From Pedobacter sp. (GTDB lineage: Bacteria > Bacteroidota > Bacteroidia > Sphingobacteriales > Sphingobacteriaceae), in the NCBI GenBank assembly GCA_014378705.1, contig JACMND010000081.1:1-46760 (forward strand): a stretch of 46,760 nt of DNA. The letters run 5' to 3'. Both the position numbers and the translations under genes were made by a program. Below are positions 39,543 to 46,760 of the stretch, one piece after another (positions within the stretch are counted from its first letter, which is position 1; each line of letters begins with the position of its first letter). Below the pieces are notes generated by a model that did not search any database, was not told the origin of the DNA, and saw only the letters and a program-made list of their open reading frames with translations.

Positions 39543-39621
39543 ATATGTACTGGGTAAAGCTTTTGCGTATTGAGATTAATCTCACCGTAATATTCAATAT
39601 TCAATACTTAATACGCTACAA

Positions 39622-39876
39622 ATGACCTTAGAAATTTTAACCCCAGATAAAACAATATATAATGGAGAAGTTACATCAGTAACTGTTCCAGGAACTATGG
39701 GTTTTTTTGAAGTTTTAAAAGACCACGCTCCAATAATTTCAACCCTTGAAAAAGGTAAAGTTACTATCCGCGGAGGCCATAAAGTTGAAGAAGTAGTGCA
39801 TATTATTGGTGGGGTTGTTGAAGTTCAAAATAACAGAATAATTGTACTAGCTGAGGGCGTTGAGGAAATATCTTAA
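39622..39876 (+). CDS. atpC: ATP synthase F1 subunit epsilon (short form)
   Basis: The 84-residue subunit contains the complete N-terminal beta-sandwich (MTLEILTPDKTIYNGEV, GTMGFFEVLKDHAPIISTL and the VVEVQNNRIIVLAE strands). It ends there and lacks the C-terminal two-helix domain that inhibits ATP hydrolysis in E. coli and Bacillus epsilon. The stop is clean and followed directly by a terminator, so this is a natural short form rather than a break. It follows atpD by 79 bases under the same promoter. Confidence 0.95.
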   Translation: MTLEILTPDKTIYNGEVTSVTVPGTMGFFEVLKDHAPIISTLEKGKVTIRGGHKVEEVVHIIGGVVEVQNNRIIVLAEGVEEIS

Positions 39877-39900
39877 AATAATTTTTTAATTAAGTAACCG

Positions 39901-39930
39901 CCCGGCAAATTTTTTTAGCCGGGTTTTTTT
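39901..39930 (+). terminator. Rho-independent terminator of atpD-atpC
   Basis: CCCGGC (39901-39906) pairs with GCCGGG (39918-39923), followed directly by seven Ts. It lies 24 bases after the atpC stop and insulates the ilv leader downstream. Confidence 0.93.
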
Positions 39931-40145
39931 ATGCGATAATTTAAAAATTATAAATAATAGTGATGGTTTTAAGCAGAATTTAAAAAATTATCAGCTAATT
40001 TTAAAAATTGAACCCAAAACCAAATCAGAAATTAGTCTACCTAATAAAAACTTTAATTGGGCGTTAGCTATATAATCAATTTTAAATTTTATTATAAAAA
40101 GATAAACCAAATAATATTCTAATAATATAAATATGAAAATAACTG

Positions 40146-40176
40146 TTGACAAATTGAACAAGTAGCTCTACCTTAA
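40146..40176 (+). promoter_or_regulatory. Possible promoter of the ilv operon
   Basis: TTG at 40146-40148 is followed after 20 bases by TACCTTAA (40169-40176). This keeps the spacing and the TA and TT positions of the Bacteroidota pattern but misses the final TG. A start near 40183 would give a leader RNA of about 207 bases containing the leader peptide and attenuator. The 215 bases before it (39931-40145) are AT-rich with no other recognised signal. TACTTTAC at 40296-40303 is a second, less likely candidate because it lies inside the leader peptide. Confidence 0.4.
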
Positions 40177-40223
40177 AAAAACAAATTTCAATGTAAGTGA
40201 GCGTTTCTAATAACTAATTAACT

Positions 40224-40319
40224 ATGGAATTATCAGAATCATATTTATTGTTCCGTCAATCGTTTTTTAACTTTTCCTACAGCATTCTACTTCTGTACTT
40301 TACAACCATGGCGCTATAA
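40224..40319 (+). CDS. ilv operon leader peptide (attenuation)
   Basis: A 31-codon ORF opens with ATG at 40224 and ends at TAA 40317-40319. Seven of its 31 residues are Leu, and codons 21-24 read Ile-Leu-Leu-Leu (ATT CTA CTT CTG, 40284-40295). CTA, CTT and CTG are the less used Leu codons in this AT-rich DNA, where TTA and TTG dominate. Its stop lies 23 bases before the attenuator stem, and its last codons contain GGCGCT, the 5' arm of the antiterminator. The position just before ilvE and the codon content fit a peptide whose translation senses charged tRNA-Leu and tRNA-Ile. It contains no Val codon. Confidence 0.7.
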   Translation: MELSESYLLFRQSFFNFSYSILLLYFTTMAL

Positions 40320-40345
40320 TTTTATACAACTTCATATGCAGCGCC
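40310..40345 (+). promoter_or_regulatory. Antiterminator pairing in the ilv leader
   Basis: GGCGCT (40310-40315) is the perfect complement of AGCGCC (40340-40345), giving a 6-bp GC-rich helix that can be extended by ATA/TAT (40316-40318 with 40335-40337) across a two-base bulge. The 3' arm includes the GCC that starts the terminator stem, so the two structures exclude each other. The 5' arm overlaps leader codons 29-31, so a ribosome at the stop codon would cover it and one stalled on the Leu codons would leave it free. Confidence 0.65.
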
Positions 40346-40374
40346 TTCTCCTCAAAAGACAAGGCTTTTTTTTT
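40343..40374 (+). terminator. Attenuator terminator of the ilv operon
   Basis: GCCTT (40343-40347) pairs with AAGGC (40361-40365). Inside, TC/GA can add two pairs past a C-C mismatch. Nine Ts (40366-40374) follow. It stands 16 bases before the ilvE ATG at 40390, which makes sense only as a regulated terminator inside the leader. Confidence 0.75.
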
Positions 40375-40389
40375 AAGATAAAAACGAAC

Positions 40390-41280
40390 ATGCAATATTA
40401 TAATAACGAAACATTAATTTATTTAAACGGCGAATATGTTAAGGCAGCCGAAACCAAAACTGATCTTTACGGTCAGTCATTACATTATGGATATGGGGTC
40501 TTTGAAGGAATAAGGGCTTATCAAACTCATAATGGAACCCGTGTATTTAAAGCAAAAGATCACTTCAAACGTCTTCAGCGGTCGGCTGAATTAGTGAATA
40601 TCCCATACAATTTCAATAATGATCAGCTAATTAATGCTACCTATAAAATTTTAGAATTAAACAATCTTAAAAACGCTTATATCCGCCCCATTATATTCAG
40701 TAGCCCAAACATGGCATTAACCAGGCCTGTAGAAACTTCTATAATGATCTGCGCCTGGGAATGGGAAGCTTATCTGGGGCACAAACTCTTAAAGGTTTGT
40801 ATTTCAAGTTTTCAAAGGCCAAATCCACGATCTGTAAAAGTAGAAGCAAAAGTAACAGGGCATTATATCAATTCCATTTTAGCTTCTACAGAGGCAAGAG
40901 ATAGGGGTTTTGATGAAGCTCTTTTATTGGATATGCATGAAAATATTGCAGAATCACCGGGGGCTAATTTCTTTTTGGAAAAAGATGGTTGCCTGTACAC
41001 TCCACAACTTGGCAATATTTTACCCGGCATTACCAGAGCTACCGTGTTTGAAATCGGGCAAATGCTCGGCATCCCGGTCATTGAAAAAACACTAACAATT
41101 AAAGATATTGAATCAGCAGATAGTGCATTTTTTTGCGGTACTGCCACAGAAATTGCTGGGATTTACTCAATTGACAGTACCATTTTTAAAACCGATTGGA
41201 GGGAAAGTTTAGGTGCCACCATTCAGCTTACCTACAAAAATCTAGTTTTAGAAAAAGCAAACTATGAAGTTTTTATCTGA
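40390..41280 (+). CDS. ilvE: Branched-chain amino acid aminotransferase
   Basis: This class IV PLP enzyme (297 residues from the ATG at 40390) makes the final transamination to Leu, Ile and Val. The opening [19 protein letters not shown] and [15 protein letters not shown] are typical. [11 protein letters not shown] contains the PLP lysine K154, and ESPGANFFL and [13 protein letters not shown] are conserved cofactor-site blocks. An upstream in-frame ATG at 40336 is rejected because its 18 extra codons run through the attenuator stem and T-run. It is the first structural gene of the ilv operon. Confidence 0.95.
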
Positions 41281-41284
41281 AATC

Positions 41285-42964
41285 ATGGAAATGAACCGCT
41301 ACAGCAAAACCATAACCGCTGATCCAACTCAGCCAGCAGCTCAAGCCATGCTTTATGGAATCGGCCTAACAACAGCTGATTTAAAAAAGGCCCAGGTCGG
41401 CATTGTCAGTATGGGTTACGAAGGCAATACCTGCAATATGCACCTGAATGATCTTGCTAAGCTGGTTAAAACCGGTGTTTGGAATAATGATTTGGTGGGA
41501 TTGATCTTTAACACGATCGGCGTTAGTGATGGCATTTCTAATGGCACAGACGGAATGCGATATTCTTTAGTATCCCGGGATATTATCGCGGATAGCATTG
41601 AAGCCGTTTGTGGTGCCCAATACTATGATGGAATAATCGCGATTCCCGGTTGCGATAAAAATATGCCAGGTTCTATTATGGCTATGGGCCGGTTAAACCG
41701 CCCGGCGATAATGGTTTATGGCGGCAGTATCCATTCAGGTAAATATAAAGGACAATCATTAAATATCGTGTCCGCATTTGAAGCTTTGGGTCAAAAAATA
41801 GCAGGAAATTTAAACGAAGAAGATTTTCAAGGAATCATCCAAAACGCCTGTCCGGGAGCAGGTGCATGTGGTGGAATGTATACTGCCAATACCATGGCTT
41901 CTGCAATTGAAGCTTTGGGAATGAGTCTTCCTTACAGTTCTTCTTATCCTGCCTTGAGTGAAGAAAAAAAGGAAGAATGCATTAAAGCGGGCGGAGCCAT
42001 TAAAATACTGCTTGAAAAAAACATTCTCCCGTCTGATATTATGACTGAAAAAGCCTTTCATAATGCCATTGTAATGGTGATGGTGTTAGGAGGTTCAACG
42101 AATGCGGTTTTGCATTTAATAGCGATGGCCCGCTCGGTTGATTTAAATTTATCCCTTGATGATTTTCAAAAAATAAGCGATAAAACACCTGTTTTAGCAG
42201 ATTTAAAACCCAGCGGACAATACCTAATGGAAGATGTTCATCGGATCGGTGGCGTTCCCGCAATACTAAAATACTTGTTAAAAATGGGTTTAATTTACGG
42301 CGATTGCATAACCGTTACCGGAAAGTCAATAGCTGAGAACGTAGCTGATGCCAGGGATTTAAACTTTAATATGCAGGATGTGATACGCCCGGTTGAAGCC
42401 CCGATAAAAGATACAGGACATTTACAAATGCTTTACGGCAATTTATCGCCGAAAGGCTCTGTAGCAAAAATCAGTGGAAAAGAAGGCGATTGTTTTGAAG
42501 GCCCTGCCAGGGTTTTTGATGGCGAAAAATCCCTGATTGCTGGTATTCAAAGTGGAAAGGTACACAAGGGAGATGTGGTGGTCATTCGGCATGTTGGTCC
42601 GAAAGGAGCGCCGGGAATGCCGGAAATGCTAAAACCAACTTCGGCAATTATTGGTGCCGGTTTGGGGAAAACGGTGGCACTTATTACAGATGGCAGATTT
42701 TCAGGTGGTACACACGGTTTTGTAGTTGGTCATATCACACCAGAAGCATGGGAAGGAGGTGCGATTGCGCTTGTAAACGATGACGATATAATTGTAATTG
42801 ATGCTAAAAATAATCATATCAACGTGATGATAAGTGATGCAGAGCTGGAAAAAAGACGCAATAATTGGGTGCAACCAAAGCCTAACGCAACTAAAGGAAT
42901 ATTATTTAAATACTTAAAACAAGTGAAAAATGCTAGTGAAGGATGTGTTACCGACGAAGACTAA
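41285..42964 (+). CDS. ilvD: Dihydroxy-acid dehydratase
   Basis: IlvD (559 residues from the ATG at 41285) dehydrates 2,3-dihydroxy-isovalerate and its C6 homologue. The Fe-S cysteines appear as [21 protein letters not shown] and [16 protein letters not shown], and the C-terminal substrate block reads [16 protein letters not shown]. The frame is open back to an ATG at 41264 that overlaps ilvE. The ATG at 41285, four bases after the ilvE stop, gives the usual [11 protein letters not shown] start and is preferred. Confidence 0.96.
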
Positions 42965-44669
42965 ACAAGCAGAGACGCTGACAAAATTAAGCGGATCGCA
43001 AATGATCCTGACTGCGTTAATGGAAGAGGGTGTAAGTACCATCTTTGGCTATCCTGGTGGAGCAATTATGCCTTTGTACGATGCCTTGTATGATTTTAAT
43101 GACCATTTAAATCACATCCTGGTAAGGCATGAACAAGGTGCGGTTCACGCAGCACAAGGCTACGCAAGGGCTTCGGGGCTTACAGGTATTGTGTTTGCCA
43201 CAAGCGGCCCGGGTGCTACAAATCTGGTAACCGGCCTGGCAGATGCCCAGATTGACAGTACGCCTATTGTCTGTATAACCGGGCAAGTTTACGCTCATTT
43301 ACTTGGTACAGACGCTTTTCAGGAAACAGATGTAATTAACATTACAGCACCTGTTACAAAATGGAATTATCAGGTTACGGATGCCAAAGAAATACCTGAA
43401 GCCCTGGCAAAGGCATTTTATATAGCACGTAGCGGCAGGCCGGGGCCCGTTTTGATCGACATTACAAAAAATGCCCAGCTACAAATCGAAGAATTCAGCC
43501 CCTATAAAAAATGCCATCATATCCGTAGTTACAGGCCTTCACCCAAGGTTCGCATTGAACCTATCCAACAAGCTGCTGAACTAATTAACCAGGCCAAAAA
43601 GCCCTTTGTTTTGTTTGGGCAGGGGGTTATTTTGGGTAAAGCAGAGCAGGAGTTTAGATCTTTTATTGAGAAAACCGGAATACCTTCTGCCTGGACTATT
43701 TTAGGCGATAGCGCCATACCTACAGATCACCCGTTAAACGTCGGAATGCTGGGAATGCACGGGAATTACGGGCCAAATGTACTTACAAATCAATGCGACG
43801 TATTGATCGCCATTGGGATGCGTTTTGATGATCGAGTAACCGGTCGCCTCGATAAATATGCGAAACAAGCCAAAATTATTCACATGGATATCGATCCCGC
43901 CGAAATAGACAAAAATGTGAAGGCCGATATTGGAATCTGGGGCGACTGTAAAGAAACGCTTCCGCTGCTTTCTGAACTGGTAAAACCAAATTCGCATCAA
44001 GAATGGTTGCAACTCTTTGCTGATCACGATAAAGAAGAACGTCAAACCGTTATTCATCAGGAATTAAACCCGCAAAGCGGAGAAATAACAATGGGTGAAG
44101 TAATACGGAACCTGAATGAACTAACAGGTGGCGACGCTATTATAGTTACCGATGTTGGTCAGCATCAAATGGTTGCCTGCAGATATGCCAAGTTTAATTC
44201 AAGCCGTTCAAATATTACTTCAGGTGGTTTGGGTACGATGGGATTTTGCTTGCCGGCTGCAATTGGAGCAAAATTCGGGGCCCCAGAAAGAACTGTTGTA
44301 GGAATTGTTGGTGACGGGGGTTTTCAAATGACCTTACAAGAGTTGGGAACGATTATGCAATCGAAAGTTGATGTAAAGATCGTAATCTTAAACAACCGCT
44401 TTTTAGGAATGGTCAGACAATGGCAGCAATTATTTAATGATAAGCGCTATTCGTCGGTAAATATTGAAAGTCCTGACTTTGTTGCACTTGCAAAAGCTTA
44501 CCGAATTGATGGCCAGCTAGTTGAAGATAGAAACAATTTAAATGAAGCCCTAAAAACGATGCTGGACAATAAAGGAAGTTATCTATTGGAAATCCTGGTA
44601 GGCAAAGAAAACAATGTATTCCCGATGGTGCCACAAGGTTGTAGCGTAAGTGAGATCAGGTTAAAATAA
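42930..44669 (+). CDS. ilvB: Acetolactate synthase large (catalytic) subunit
   Basis: This ThDP enzyme (579 residues) condenses pyruvate with pyruvate or 2-oxobutyrate. Motifs seen are [33 protein letters not shown] with the catalytic Glu, the FAD-binding middle domain ([12 protein letters not shown]), and the ThDP motif GDGGFQM followed by [13 protein letters not shown]. The ATG at 42930 overlaps the end of ilvD by 35 bases, which implies translational coupling. A large subunit with a separate regulatory subunit (ilvN) downstream indicates the feedback-regulated anabolic form. Confidence 0.96.
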
Positions 44670-44747: not shown

Positions 44748-44791
44748 GAAAAGCGGGTTTCAGGTTGCTATTTAAGTTGGCCCTGCTTTTC
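44748..44791 (+). other. Hairpin in the ilvB-ilvN spacer
   Basis: GAAAAGCGGG (44748-44757) pairs with CCCTGCTTTTC (44781-44791) as a 10-bp stem with one bulged T, closing a 23-base loop. It is not followed by a proper T-run (GTCTTAATCTTTTT comes after), so it is more likely an RNA processing or stability element than a full terminator. It sits in a 222-base gap in an operon whose earlier genes overlap or nearly touch. Confidence 0.5.
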
Positions 44792-44891
44792 GTCTTAATC
44801 TTTTTGCCTTGAAGTGGTTCAAAAAGGATTTTCACCTCAATCAGGTTTTGTTAGAGGAGCGAAGAGGCATTTTAAAATTAATATTAAAATA

Positions 44892-45542
44892 ATGAGCGAT
44901 ATAAATATCAATCAAAATACCAGTTTGTTTTCCAAGGAAGATGACGGTTCTGAAACTAAACAGGAATATACGTTTACGGTTTATTCAGAAAACCGGATTG
45001 GAATATTGAGCCGCATTGCTATCATTTTTTCCAAGCGTAAAATCAATATTGAAAGCTTGAACACCTCCCCTTCGGAAATTGAAGGGATACATCGTTTCAA
45101 TATAGTGATCCAGGAAACCGGCGAAGTGGTAAAAAAGCTCGCCCGGCAGATTGAAAAGCAGGTTGAGGTTTTAAAAGTTTATTACAGTACCAATGATCAG
45201 ATCATCTGGCAGGAACTTGCTCTATATAAAGTTCCTACGGATGTAATTGCTGAAAAAGTAGAAGTAGAAAGATTGCTGCATCAATTTGGAGCTACCGCAG
45301 TAGTGATTCGAAAAGATTACACCGTGTTTTCTGTTACGGGACACAAAGAAGAAACAGACCGCTTGGTAACTGCCCTGGAACCATACAGTTTAATTGAATT
45401 TGTTAGGAGCGCCCGGGTCGCGATTATAAAAAACAGTCGTGGATTTCATGAAAAACTAAAAGAATTTGAGGCCCTGGAACCAGGCGAAGAAGTTATTGAA
45501 AATGAGTTTTTAAATAAAGGGGACGATGTTTTTACAATGTAA
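44892..45542 (+). CDS. ilvN: Acetolactate synthase small (regulatory) subunit
   Basis: From the ATG at 44892 the protein has 216 residues; an upstream in-frame ATG at 44814 adds 26 residues unlike the family. The N-terminal ACT domain begins at YTFTVYSENRIGILSRIAIIFSKRKINIESLN, and the C-terminal regulatory domain follows (VERLLHQFGATAVVIRKDYTVFSVTGHKEETDRLV). It binds IlvB and confers valine feedback inhibition and full activity. An acidic C-terminal tail ends at 45542. It resembles the long bacterial IlvH type (about 160 residues) with short extensions at both ends. Confidence 0.94.
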   Translation: MSDININQNTSLFSKEDDGSETKQEYTFTVYSENRIGILSRIAIIFSKRKINIESLNTSPSEIEGIHRFNIVIQETGEVVKKLARQIEKQVEVLKVYYSTNDQIIWQELALYKVPTDVIAEKVEVERLLHQFGATAVVIRKDYTVFSVTGHKEETDRLVTALEPYSLIEFVRSARVAIIKNSRGFHEKLKEFEALEPGEEVIENEFLNKGDDVFTM

Positions 45543-45570
45543 GACGTATGGAATGCAAAGATTAAACACA

Positions 45571-45675
45571 GTTGCGTGAGGGATTGCAGCGGAAATCCTT
45601 TTTGCCCATCCTGAGCGCAGCGAAGGATCGGGCAAAAAGATTGAAGCGAAAAGCCCGACCCGCAGGGACACGCCC
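45571..45675. repeat. Nested palindromic intergenic repeat element between ilvN and ilvC
   Basis: The core is a long hairpin: TTTTTGCCC (45599-45607) with GGGCAAAAA (45630-45638), and inside it ATCCT/AGGAT around CGCAGCG. A small hairpin GGATT/AATCC (45581-45598) flanks it on the left, and GCGTG (45574-45578) can pair with CACGC (45669-45673) to close the whole unit. The motif GATTGnAGCG occurs twice (45582 and 45639), flanking the central stem. The GC-rich, symmetric make-up differs sharply from the AT-rich surroundings. From memory, sequences of this sort are dispersed in many Bacteroidota genomes, so I call it a REP-like element. Confidence 0.75.
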
Positions 45676-45825: not shown

Positions 45826-46760
45826 ATGGCACAAATCAATTTTGGCGGAACAGTAGAAAACGTTGTTACCCGCGAAGAATTTCCGTTAGAAAAAGCGTTG
45901 AATATATTGGAAAAAGAAGTAGTAGCCGTAATCGGTTATGGCGTACAAGGTCCCGGGCAAGCTCTTAACCAAAGAGATAACGGGGTTAACGTTATTATTG
46001 GCCAACGTAAAAATTCAAAAAGCTGGGATAAAGCTGTCGCTGATGGATTTATTGAAGGCGAGAACCTTTTTGAAATTGAAGAAGCTTTAAAACGCGGAAC
46101 CATTATTTGTTATCTATTAAGTGATGCTGCTCAGATTGAACTCTGGCCTACCGTTAAAAAACACCTTACGCCGGGCAAAGCGCTTTACTTTTCGCATGGT
46201 TTCGGAATTACCTTTAATGAGCAAACCGGCATTATCCCTCCAGAAGGTGTGGACGTATTTTTGGTTGCCCCAAAAGGATCCGGCACTTCTTTACGCCGGA
46301 TGTTCCTTCAGGGCAGGGGTTTAAATTCCAGTTACGCTATTTTTAAAGACGCCACCGGACGGGCAAAGGAAAGAGTAATTGCATTGGGAATCGCTGTAGG
46401 TTCCGGCTATTTGTTCGAAACAGATTTCAGAAAGGAGGTTTTCAGTGATCTTACAGGTGAACGCGGTACTTTAATGGGTGCGATTCAGGGAATTTTTGCG
46501 GCTCAATACCAAGTTTTAAGAGATAACGGCCACTCGCCATCTGAGGCTTTTAACGAAACCGTTGAAGAGTTAACGCAAAGCTTAATGCCTTTAGTTGCTG
46601 AAAATGGCATGGACTGGATGTATGCAAATTGTTCTACCACTGCGCAACGTGGCGCATTAGATTGGTGGAAAAGGTTCCGCGATGCAACACAACCCGTTTT
46701 TGCAGAATTATATAAGAGCGTTGCAAGCGGAGTTGAGTCACAACGATCAATTGACTCCAA
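45826..46760 (+). CDS. ilvC: Ketol-acid reductoisomerase (partial, runs off the window)
   Basis: The frame is open from the ATG at 45826 to the window end (311 codons visible). IlvC isomerises and reduces acetolactate or acetohydroxybutyrate with NADPH. The Rossmann loop reads VAVIGYGVQGPGQALNQRDNG. Further blocks are GKALYFSHGFGI, LVAPKGSGTSLRRMFLQGRG, DLTGERGTLMGAIQG with the metal-binding acidic residues, and later ANCSTTAQRGALDWW. The class II-like extra C-terminal part would lie outside. It follows ilvN after 283 bases that hold the palindromic repeat. Confidence 0.96.
   Translation, partial: MAQINFGGTVENVVTREEFPLEKALNILEKEVVAVIGYGVQGPGQALNQRDNGVNVIIGQRKNSKSWDKAVADGFIEGENLFEIEEALKRGTIICYLLSDAAQIELWPTVKKHLTPGKALYFSHGFGITFNEQTGIIPPEGVDVFLVAPKGSGTSLRRMFLQGRGLNSSYAIFKDATGRAKERVIALGIAVGSGYLFETDFRKEVFSDLTGERGTLMGAIQGIFAAQYQVLRDNGHSPSEAFNETVEELTQSLMPLVAENGMDWMYANCSTTAQRGALDWWKRFRDATQPVFAELYKSVASGVESQRSIDS

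Follow-up and report, generated by a model that had tools for sequence, protein, structure and literature searches.

Does the interval between atpC and ilvE in the Pedobacter sp. contig studied here decide whether the ilvEDBNC operon is transcribed? The window, that is, the whole stretch of 46,760 nucleotides that we analysed, carries at positions 40146-40389 a 5' leader of this operon which, judging from its sequence and modelled folds, very probably works as a ribosome-mediated (leader-peptide) transcription attenuator, and probably as a leucine-weighted one. Leader-peptide attenuation is a textbook mechanism. What is new here is thus not the mechanism, which is classic, but its occurrence in many related Bacteroidota, where such elements are little described.

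The leader and the genes around it

The leader ORF occupies positions 40224-40319 (all features lie on the forward strand unless stated otherwise) and consists of 31 codons and a TAA stop. Its peptide, MELSESYLLFRQSFFNFSYSILLLYFTTMAL, has a C-terminal pattern, ILLL...AL*, common to near relatives. Codons 21-24 (40284-40295; ATT CTA CTT CTG) spell Ile-Leu-Leu-Leu, as the first-pass annotation had read them, and the peptide contains no Val and a single Ile. The operon is thereby preceded by a short ORF rich in codons of the pathway, with a Leu core kept through synonymous changes. Within the final leader codons lies the antiterminator 5' arm GGCGCT (40310-40315), recognized in the sequence and by the swap test described below; its 3' arm AGCGCC (40340-40345), recognized in the sequence and by folding, would be mutually exclusive with the terminator, positions 40343-40345 being common to both. 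The terminator stem-loop GCCTT.TC/GA.AAGGC (40343-40365), obtained by folding and with pairs that covary in the family alignment, is built of 5 bp, a C-C mismatch, 2 bp and a 7-nt loop, has a stability of -6.4 to -6.6 kcal/mol and is followed by exactly nine Ts (40366-40374). An intrinsic terminator of weak stem (40343-40374) hence stands between the leader ORF and the first gene, the leader stop being 70 nt away from ilvE. Both the terminator with its nine Ts and the 6-bp helix overlapping the last leader codons had been described in the first-pass annotation and are borne out, except that the gap from the T tract to the ilvE ATG (40390) is 15 bases and not 16.

We envisage the following course of events. 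RNA polymerase would start near 40180 and be followed by a ribosome translating the 31-codon leader. With an ample supply of charged tRNA-Leu (and tRNA-Ile), the ribosome would reach the stop codon and cover GGCGCT, upon which the terminator would form and transcription would end before ilvE. Under a shortage of leucine (or isoleucine), the ribosome would be expected to stall on codons 21-24 with its leading edge just before 40310, leaving GGCGCT free to pair with AGCGCC; the terminator would then be pre-empted and the operon transcribed. The amino acids sensed would be Leu first and Ile second. The lack of Val codons had earlier been taken to suggest that Leu and Ile only are sensed. Val is indeed absent here, but many relatives have it within their runs, and the narrower reading is drawn from this one peptide and from the Leu-rich core of the family.

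A putative promoter, with TTGACA at 40146, TACCTTAA at 40169 and a spacer of 20, may occupy positions 40146-40176. The 20-nt spacing recurs as TTGATT...TACATTGA in locus L003 and as TTGACA, TTGATA or TTGATT...TAAATTGG in L078, L033, L062 and L162; the distance to the leader ATG is 47 nt in the window versus 25-31 nt in these five loci. On its own, the window's promoter score (8.0 versus a shuffle mean of 7.4) is weak, and since the promoter scan as a whole gains only weakly over shuffles (mean 8.2 versus 7.4), the promoter stays putative. As for translation, Bacteroidota initiate it mostly without Shine-Dalgarno sequences, and the finding of an AGGA, GGAG or GAGG match upstream of the leader start in only 5 of 102 Bacteroidota leaders agrees with this Shine-Dalgarno-poor initiation.

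The operon comprises ilvE (branched-chain aminotransferase, 40390-41280; NCBIfam TIGR01122 and PRK06606), ilvD (dihydroxy-acid dehydratase, 41264-42964; TIGR00110), ilvB (acetolactate synthase large subunit, 42930-44669; TIGR00118), ilvN (acetolactate synthase small subunit, 44814-45542; TIGR00119) and ilvC (ketol-acid reductoisomerase, 45826-46758, truncated by the contig end; TIGR00465), each of these models matching above its cut-off. We place the ilvE start at 40390 because IlvE proteins of close relatives align from the Met at this position and the two NCBIfam ilvE models (both above cut-off) begin at residues 23 and 29 of the ORF from 40336. By this comparison, the ORF from 40336 appears to be an over-extension of ilvE that reads through the terminator; as the first-pass annotation foresaw, a gene call starting there would hide the element, which may serve as a warning to annotators. 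The family matches of ilvN start late as well (TIGR00119 at residue 54 and PRK11895, below cut-off, at residue 52), and the true ilvN start is probably near 44967, about 50 codons past the mechanical ORF start.

Two Flavo-1 RNAs (RF01705) lie within the operon, at 44775-44852 on the reverse strand in the ilvB-ilvN gap and at 45566-45664 on the forward strand in the ilvN-ilvC gap; the mechanical start of the ilvN ORF (region 44814-44967) falls inside the antisense copy. Genome-wide, Flavo-1 gave 57 matches at E up to 0.001, 27 of them over the cut-off, and the copies look like a dispersed repeat and not like a gene-specific RNA.

Upstream of the leader is atpC, in the same orientation, which invites the suggestion that we are dealing with an ordinary terminator of the atp transcript and a short ORF that arose by chance. 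We find this hardly credible: atpC has its own terminator at about 39900-39924 (seen in the sequence and also as the scan's first unit of L001), and the short ORF, the Leu run, the position of the control codons and the pairing are all conserved in relatives.

The configuration against chance and among relatives

Compared with shuffled sequences, neither the plain fold of the leader (z -1.0) nor the terminator alone (z -0.3) is unusually stable, and a simple terminator scan listed no site in 39600-40800. As the fold of the single sequence was unremarkable, we scored the configuration as a whole, defined as a terminator, an ORF of 8-60 codons that ends no more than 90 nt from it, a helix in which the end of the ORF pairs with the 5' arm of the terminator (helix score threshold 12) and a run of I/L/V codons. 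With at least three consecutive I/L/V codons, it was present in 56 of 84 distinct ilvE upstream regions, in none of 420 dinucleotide-block shuffles and in none of 182 gene starts, the latter being ORFs of at least 130 codons, spurious ones included, taken from the window together with 214,682 bases of its genome in 20 stretches, with ilvE present only with its over-extended start at 40336. For runs of at least four such codons, as in the window, the counts were 49/84, 0/420 and 0/182, respectively. Chance falls far short of explaining the complete configuration.

An ilvE of this type (E up to 1e-60) was detected in 174 of the 301 genomes searched in the family and in 46 of 395 in the class, two named records (L032, Flavihumibacter soli R14, and L033, Pedobacter metabolipauper) being the basis of the family and genus labels of relatives. 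The 124 loci compared below are a non-random sample, mostly best matches to the window's ilvE. At a helix score of at least 10, we scanned 72 loci from three genera of the family and found the complete element (leader, I/L/V run, antiterminator and terminator) in 63, the other nine having failed the scan; conservation of the small ORF, of its Leu/Ile runs and of both pairings, which the first-pass annotation had itself named as a test, is therefore seen in relatives. The nearest relative (78% ilvE identity) has the leader MVPHNTQTALIYAPLVSDHKLVSLIYLAGTILLLILQQAL, ending TILLLILQQAL, whose likeness to that of the window is limited to the C-terminal control end, the N-terminal part being different. 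The leader of P. metabolipauper reads MNPVLNAIFIVIINVILLLIIQQKKAL, and those of other relatives end with VILLLIIQQKKAL and have the same GGCGCT arm.

In alignment A2 (15 loci, with rows chosen for this arm type), GGCGCT is invariant, and the three Leu positions of the control codons are Leu in 14, 14 and 15 of the 15 loci, the first two drawing on four different Leu codons each. In 25 of the 63 loci, which form a sub-group, 100 of the 100 cells of the four core positions are Leu, and these positions use 5, 4, 4 and 4 different codons. Such a Leu core with varied codons means that the amino acid is conserved, and not the DNA. In alignment A1 (63 rows), six T columns of the terminator are invariant. 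The aligned stretch begins about 75 nt ahead of the leader stop and runs to the terminator; within it, conserved columns are found in the leader codons and in the terminator. Riboswitches, T-boxes and protein-dependent leaders also use terminator/antiterminator logic, and a leader of one of these classes would share this side of the element; with conservation placed as above and no Rfam match either in 39950-40500 (E up to 10) or in 14 related loci (gathering score), we consider it very unlikely that the ilvE leader is one of them.

The make-up of the I/L/V runs differs between lineages: Leu accounts for 56% in the three family genera versus 19% in other loci, and Ile for 23% versus 56%. In the Leu runs of the family, TTA and TTG are avoided (86 of 350 codons versus 477 of 983 in ilvE coding stretches), and CTA and CTC are favoured relative to ilvE. 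This bias hints that the switch may read the CUN isoacceptors of tRNA-Leu; the P-values for the bias and for the swap test below are too small because related loci were counted as independent.

Covariation in both helices had been proposed as a check. For the terminator, it was found: 97.4% of cells are paired across the 63 family loci, and 49 cells are double-changed versus 14 in shuffles, a value reached by none of 500 shuffles (counts that also treat related loci as independent), with two of the five measures, both-side-changed pairs (126/500) and pair types (301/500), not above shuffles. For the antiterminator, column covariation in a single register was not above shuffles (439 of 500 reach the score; 69.6% of cells paired). 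Its register differs between sub-groups (GGCGCT/AGCGCC, GGACGC/GCGTCC, AGGCGC/GCGCCT and others), and we therefore replaced the single-register count with a register-free swap test, in which the leader end is scored against its own terminator arm and against the arms of other loci. The fraction scoring at least 15 was 0.62 with own versus 0.37 with swapped arms in the family set (69 loci), and 0.82 versus 0.27 in the remaining set (33 loci, including L008 of genus g17, where the end of atpC seems to have been taken for a "leader"). The antiterminator pairing thus draws its support from the swap test and not from column covariation in one register.

The element is absent from all nine loci of genus g17 (L008, L040, L096, L098-L101, L164 and L165) and from all three of genus g4 (L011, L103 and L104). 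Given these loci and the nine family loci that failed the scan, the element is not essential. By eye, a promoter-like pair CTATTG...TAnCTT seems to be kept in several g17 and g4 loci. In L005 (G015, of the window's genus), a terminator of -10.8 kcal/mol stands before ilvE together with a short ORF (MKQTSHFTHHN..., by eye) that has no I/L/V run, and the scan found no candidate; L005 is possibly a decayed attenuator.

Control-codon position and the computed switch

If a stalled ribosome is to free the antiterminator arm and a ribosome at the stop codon is to mask it, the position of the control codons relative to the arm should matter. We measured this in the 96 of 124 loci that have all three parts (helix score 12; arm sought between 24 nt upstream and 14 nt downstream of the leader stop), however far the run lay from the arm. 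Among codons whose end is 12-29 nt upstream of the arm, a fraction of 0.76-0.89 are I/L/V codons. This fraction drops to 0.43 at a distance of 9-11 nt, to 0.08 at 6-8 nt and to 0.02-0.06 at 0-5 nt; within the arm, 7-9 nt beyond its start, it is back up at 0.31. In 62 of 63 family loci, at least 10 nt separate the last Leu codon of the run from the arm; in the window, this distance is 14 nt. An E. coli ribosome reaches about 10 nt beyond its A-site codon, and the edge at 9-11 nt would about match the reach of a stalled ribosome.

This placement bears on a further possibility, namely that the main role of the leader ORF is to supply ilvE with ribosomes by reinitiation, with no action via transcription termination. 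A reinitiation role has been proposed for short ORFs just upstream of adjoining genes, with a preferred spacing of 11-14 bp in Bacteroidetes (PMC4833913). In the window, 70 nt and a T-tract terminator separate the leader stop from ilvE, and reinitiation leaves the placement of I/L/V codons relative to the arm unexplained; we give it next to no weight and proceed with attenuation.

The switch was computed by folding nascent RNA made only up to the terminator loop. In the window, P(antiterminator) is 0.98 with the A site on codons 1-25, 0.56 at codon 26 and 0.00 from codon 27, so that the proposal of a stall on the Leu codons freeing GGCGCT, and of a ribosome at the stop masking it, gains a computed switch at codon 26. 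In 91 of 93 loci, P(antiterminator) was at least 0.5 for a ribosome stalled within the run and fell below 0.1 for one at the stop; this set of loci (helix score 12) was chosen with an I/L/V run near the arm required. The density profile from this set is partly circular, since it demands a run near the arm; the 96-locus measurement repeats it without that demand. We also considered the equilibrium terminator probability as a general test and replaced it with the nascent P(antiterminator), as a stop-minus-stalled difference of at least 0.3 was seen in only 12 of the 93 loci; most loci must therefore work kinetically, with the antiterminator forming first.

The window is among these 12: its equilibrium terminator probability is 0.12-0.15 while the ribosome is on codons 21-25 and rises to 0.92 once it reaches codon 26. 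This result has to be weighed against the idea that the window carries a decayed attenuator, an ancestral leader which, with a weak terminator and poor I/L/V content, has lost strong regulation here. Its terminator is the weakest of the 60 configuration candidates, the others ranging from -10.6 to -27 kcal/mol; Val is missing and Ile single, where many relatives have long I/V/L stretches; and the L005 locus (terminator but no candidate leader, in the same genus by our count) and the examined g17 and g4 loci without the element would be in keeping with decay. But ILLL, the antiterminator pair and the nine Ts are all intact, and the window switches even at equilibrium. We regard decay as improbable and retain the reading of a working attenuator.

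Six E. coli attenuators served as controls. The same procedure recovers the geometry and the switch in five (thr, leu, trp, ilv and phe); hisL was dropped because the helix search settled on an incorrect register there, with P at 0.00 for every codon and at 0.98 untranslated. Overall, the control codons in the window appear to stand where a stall would free the arm and the stop would mask it, as indicated by the computed switch, the distance profile and the E. coli controls.

The untranslated state is less straightforward. With RNA made to the terminator loop and no translation, the window has a P(antiterminator) of 0.98, and 76 of 93 loci have 0.5 or more, versus 0.00-0.43 in the five E. coli leaders. 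In this nascent-RNA model, no effective protector is therefore predicted, and an untranslated leader would read through. However, as long as the 3' arm has yet to be transcribed, upstream sequence is predicted to pair with the 5' arm; the probability of this is 0.85 in the window, close to the five E. coli leaders (0.77-0.96), and reaches at least 0.5 in 67 of 93 loci. At equilibrium, moreover, the untranslated full leader of the window has a terminator probability of 0.65, the median over the 93 loci being 0.95. These modelled values speak against a protector-less reading. It is tempting to suppose that many lineages of the class share a protector-less two-state attenuator of branched-chain amino acid operons that reads through if untranslated, in which the sensed residue shifted from Ile/Val to Leu (CUN) in the family, which became tandem in some lineages and was lost in others, and whose 9-11 nt edge reflects ribosomes close behind RNA polymerase. 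We offer this joint picture tentatively and with some doubt, its odds being lowered because the upstream pairing and the equilibrium results speak against its protector-less part.

Known attenuators and other Bacteroidota

The first-pass annotation had likened the element to the enteric ilv and leu attenuators, and the likeness holds for the leader, the antiterminator, the terminator and the control-codon geometry, with five of six E. coli controls recovered. Like leuL and ilvL of E. coli K-12, the window has a short leader ORF with Leu or I/L/V runs and an antiterminator that would pre-empt a T-tract terminator, a ribosome stalled at the control codons freeing the arm. It differs from them in that the distance from the start of the arm to the end of the leader stop codon is 10 nt (34 nt in leuL and ilvL), in that the predicted untranslated P(antiterminator) is 0.98 (0.00 in leuL and 0.14 in ilvL), and in that Bacteroidota leaders are poor in AGGA, GGAG and GAGG (5/102). 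In its spacing, the window resembles E. coli thrL, where the corresponding distance between arm start and stop-codon end is 12 nt (10 nt in the window) and the terminator follows 21 nt after the leader stop (23 nt in the window), but thrL has Thr/Ile codons and an untranslated P(antiterminator) of 0.43.

Among the matches listed in a full-text literature search, with subscription papers mostly outside its scope, there was no description of an ilv or leu attenuator in Bacteroidetes; a survey of attenuation across bacteria (Lopatovskaya 2010) may already list Bacteroidetes ilv cases. The Bacteroid-trp RNA (RF01692), which we take to be a Trp leader, had no match in the window's genome, nor in the window at the thresholds used. 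It was put forward as a Bacteroidetes cis-regulatory candidate (PMC2864571). Leader-peptide attenuation of amino-acid operons has been suggested in Flavobacterium psychrophilum, of the same phylum as the window, in a paper whose main text contains neither "ilv" nor "branched-chain" (PMC9723704), and the thetaiotaomicron map speaks of sORFs "reminiscent of leader peptides" (PMC7366714). The ilvE leader provides a worked, testable case of leader-peptide attenuation in Bacteroidota, and the comparative distance profile makes transcription-translation coupling testable in a phylum that mostly does without Shine-Dalgarno initiation.

Finally, we would like to comment on tandem leader-terminator units, which we count in 9 of 124 loci, all in other families, after dropping five of the 14 flagged. 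Three of those dropped (L001, L033 and L074) look false, their first unit being the end of atpC with its terminator, and the count also leaves out L076 and L144. Two units in series, each with its own I/V-rich peptide, occur in L009, L043, L044, L049, L087, L089 and L090; L034 and L088 look tandem by eye, and in L034 each unit has an I/V-rich peptide.
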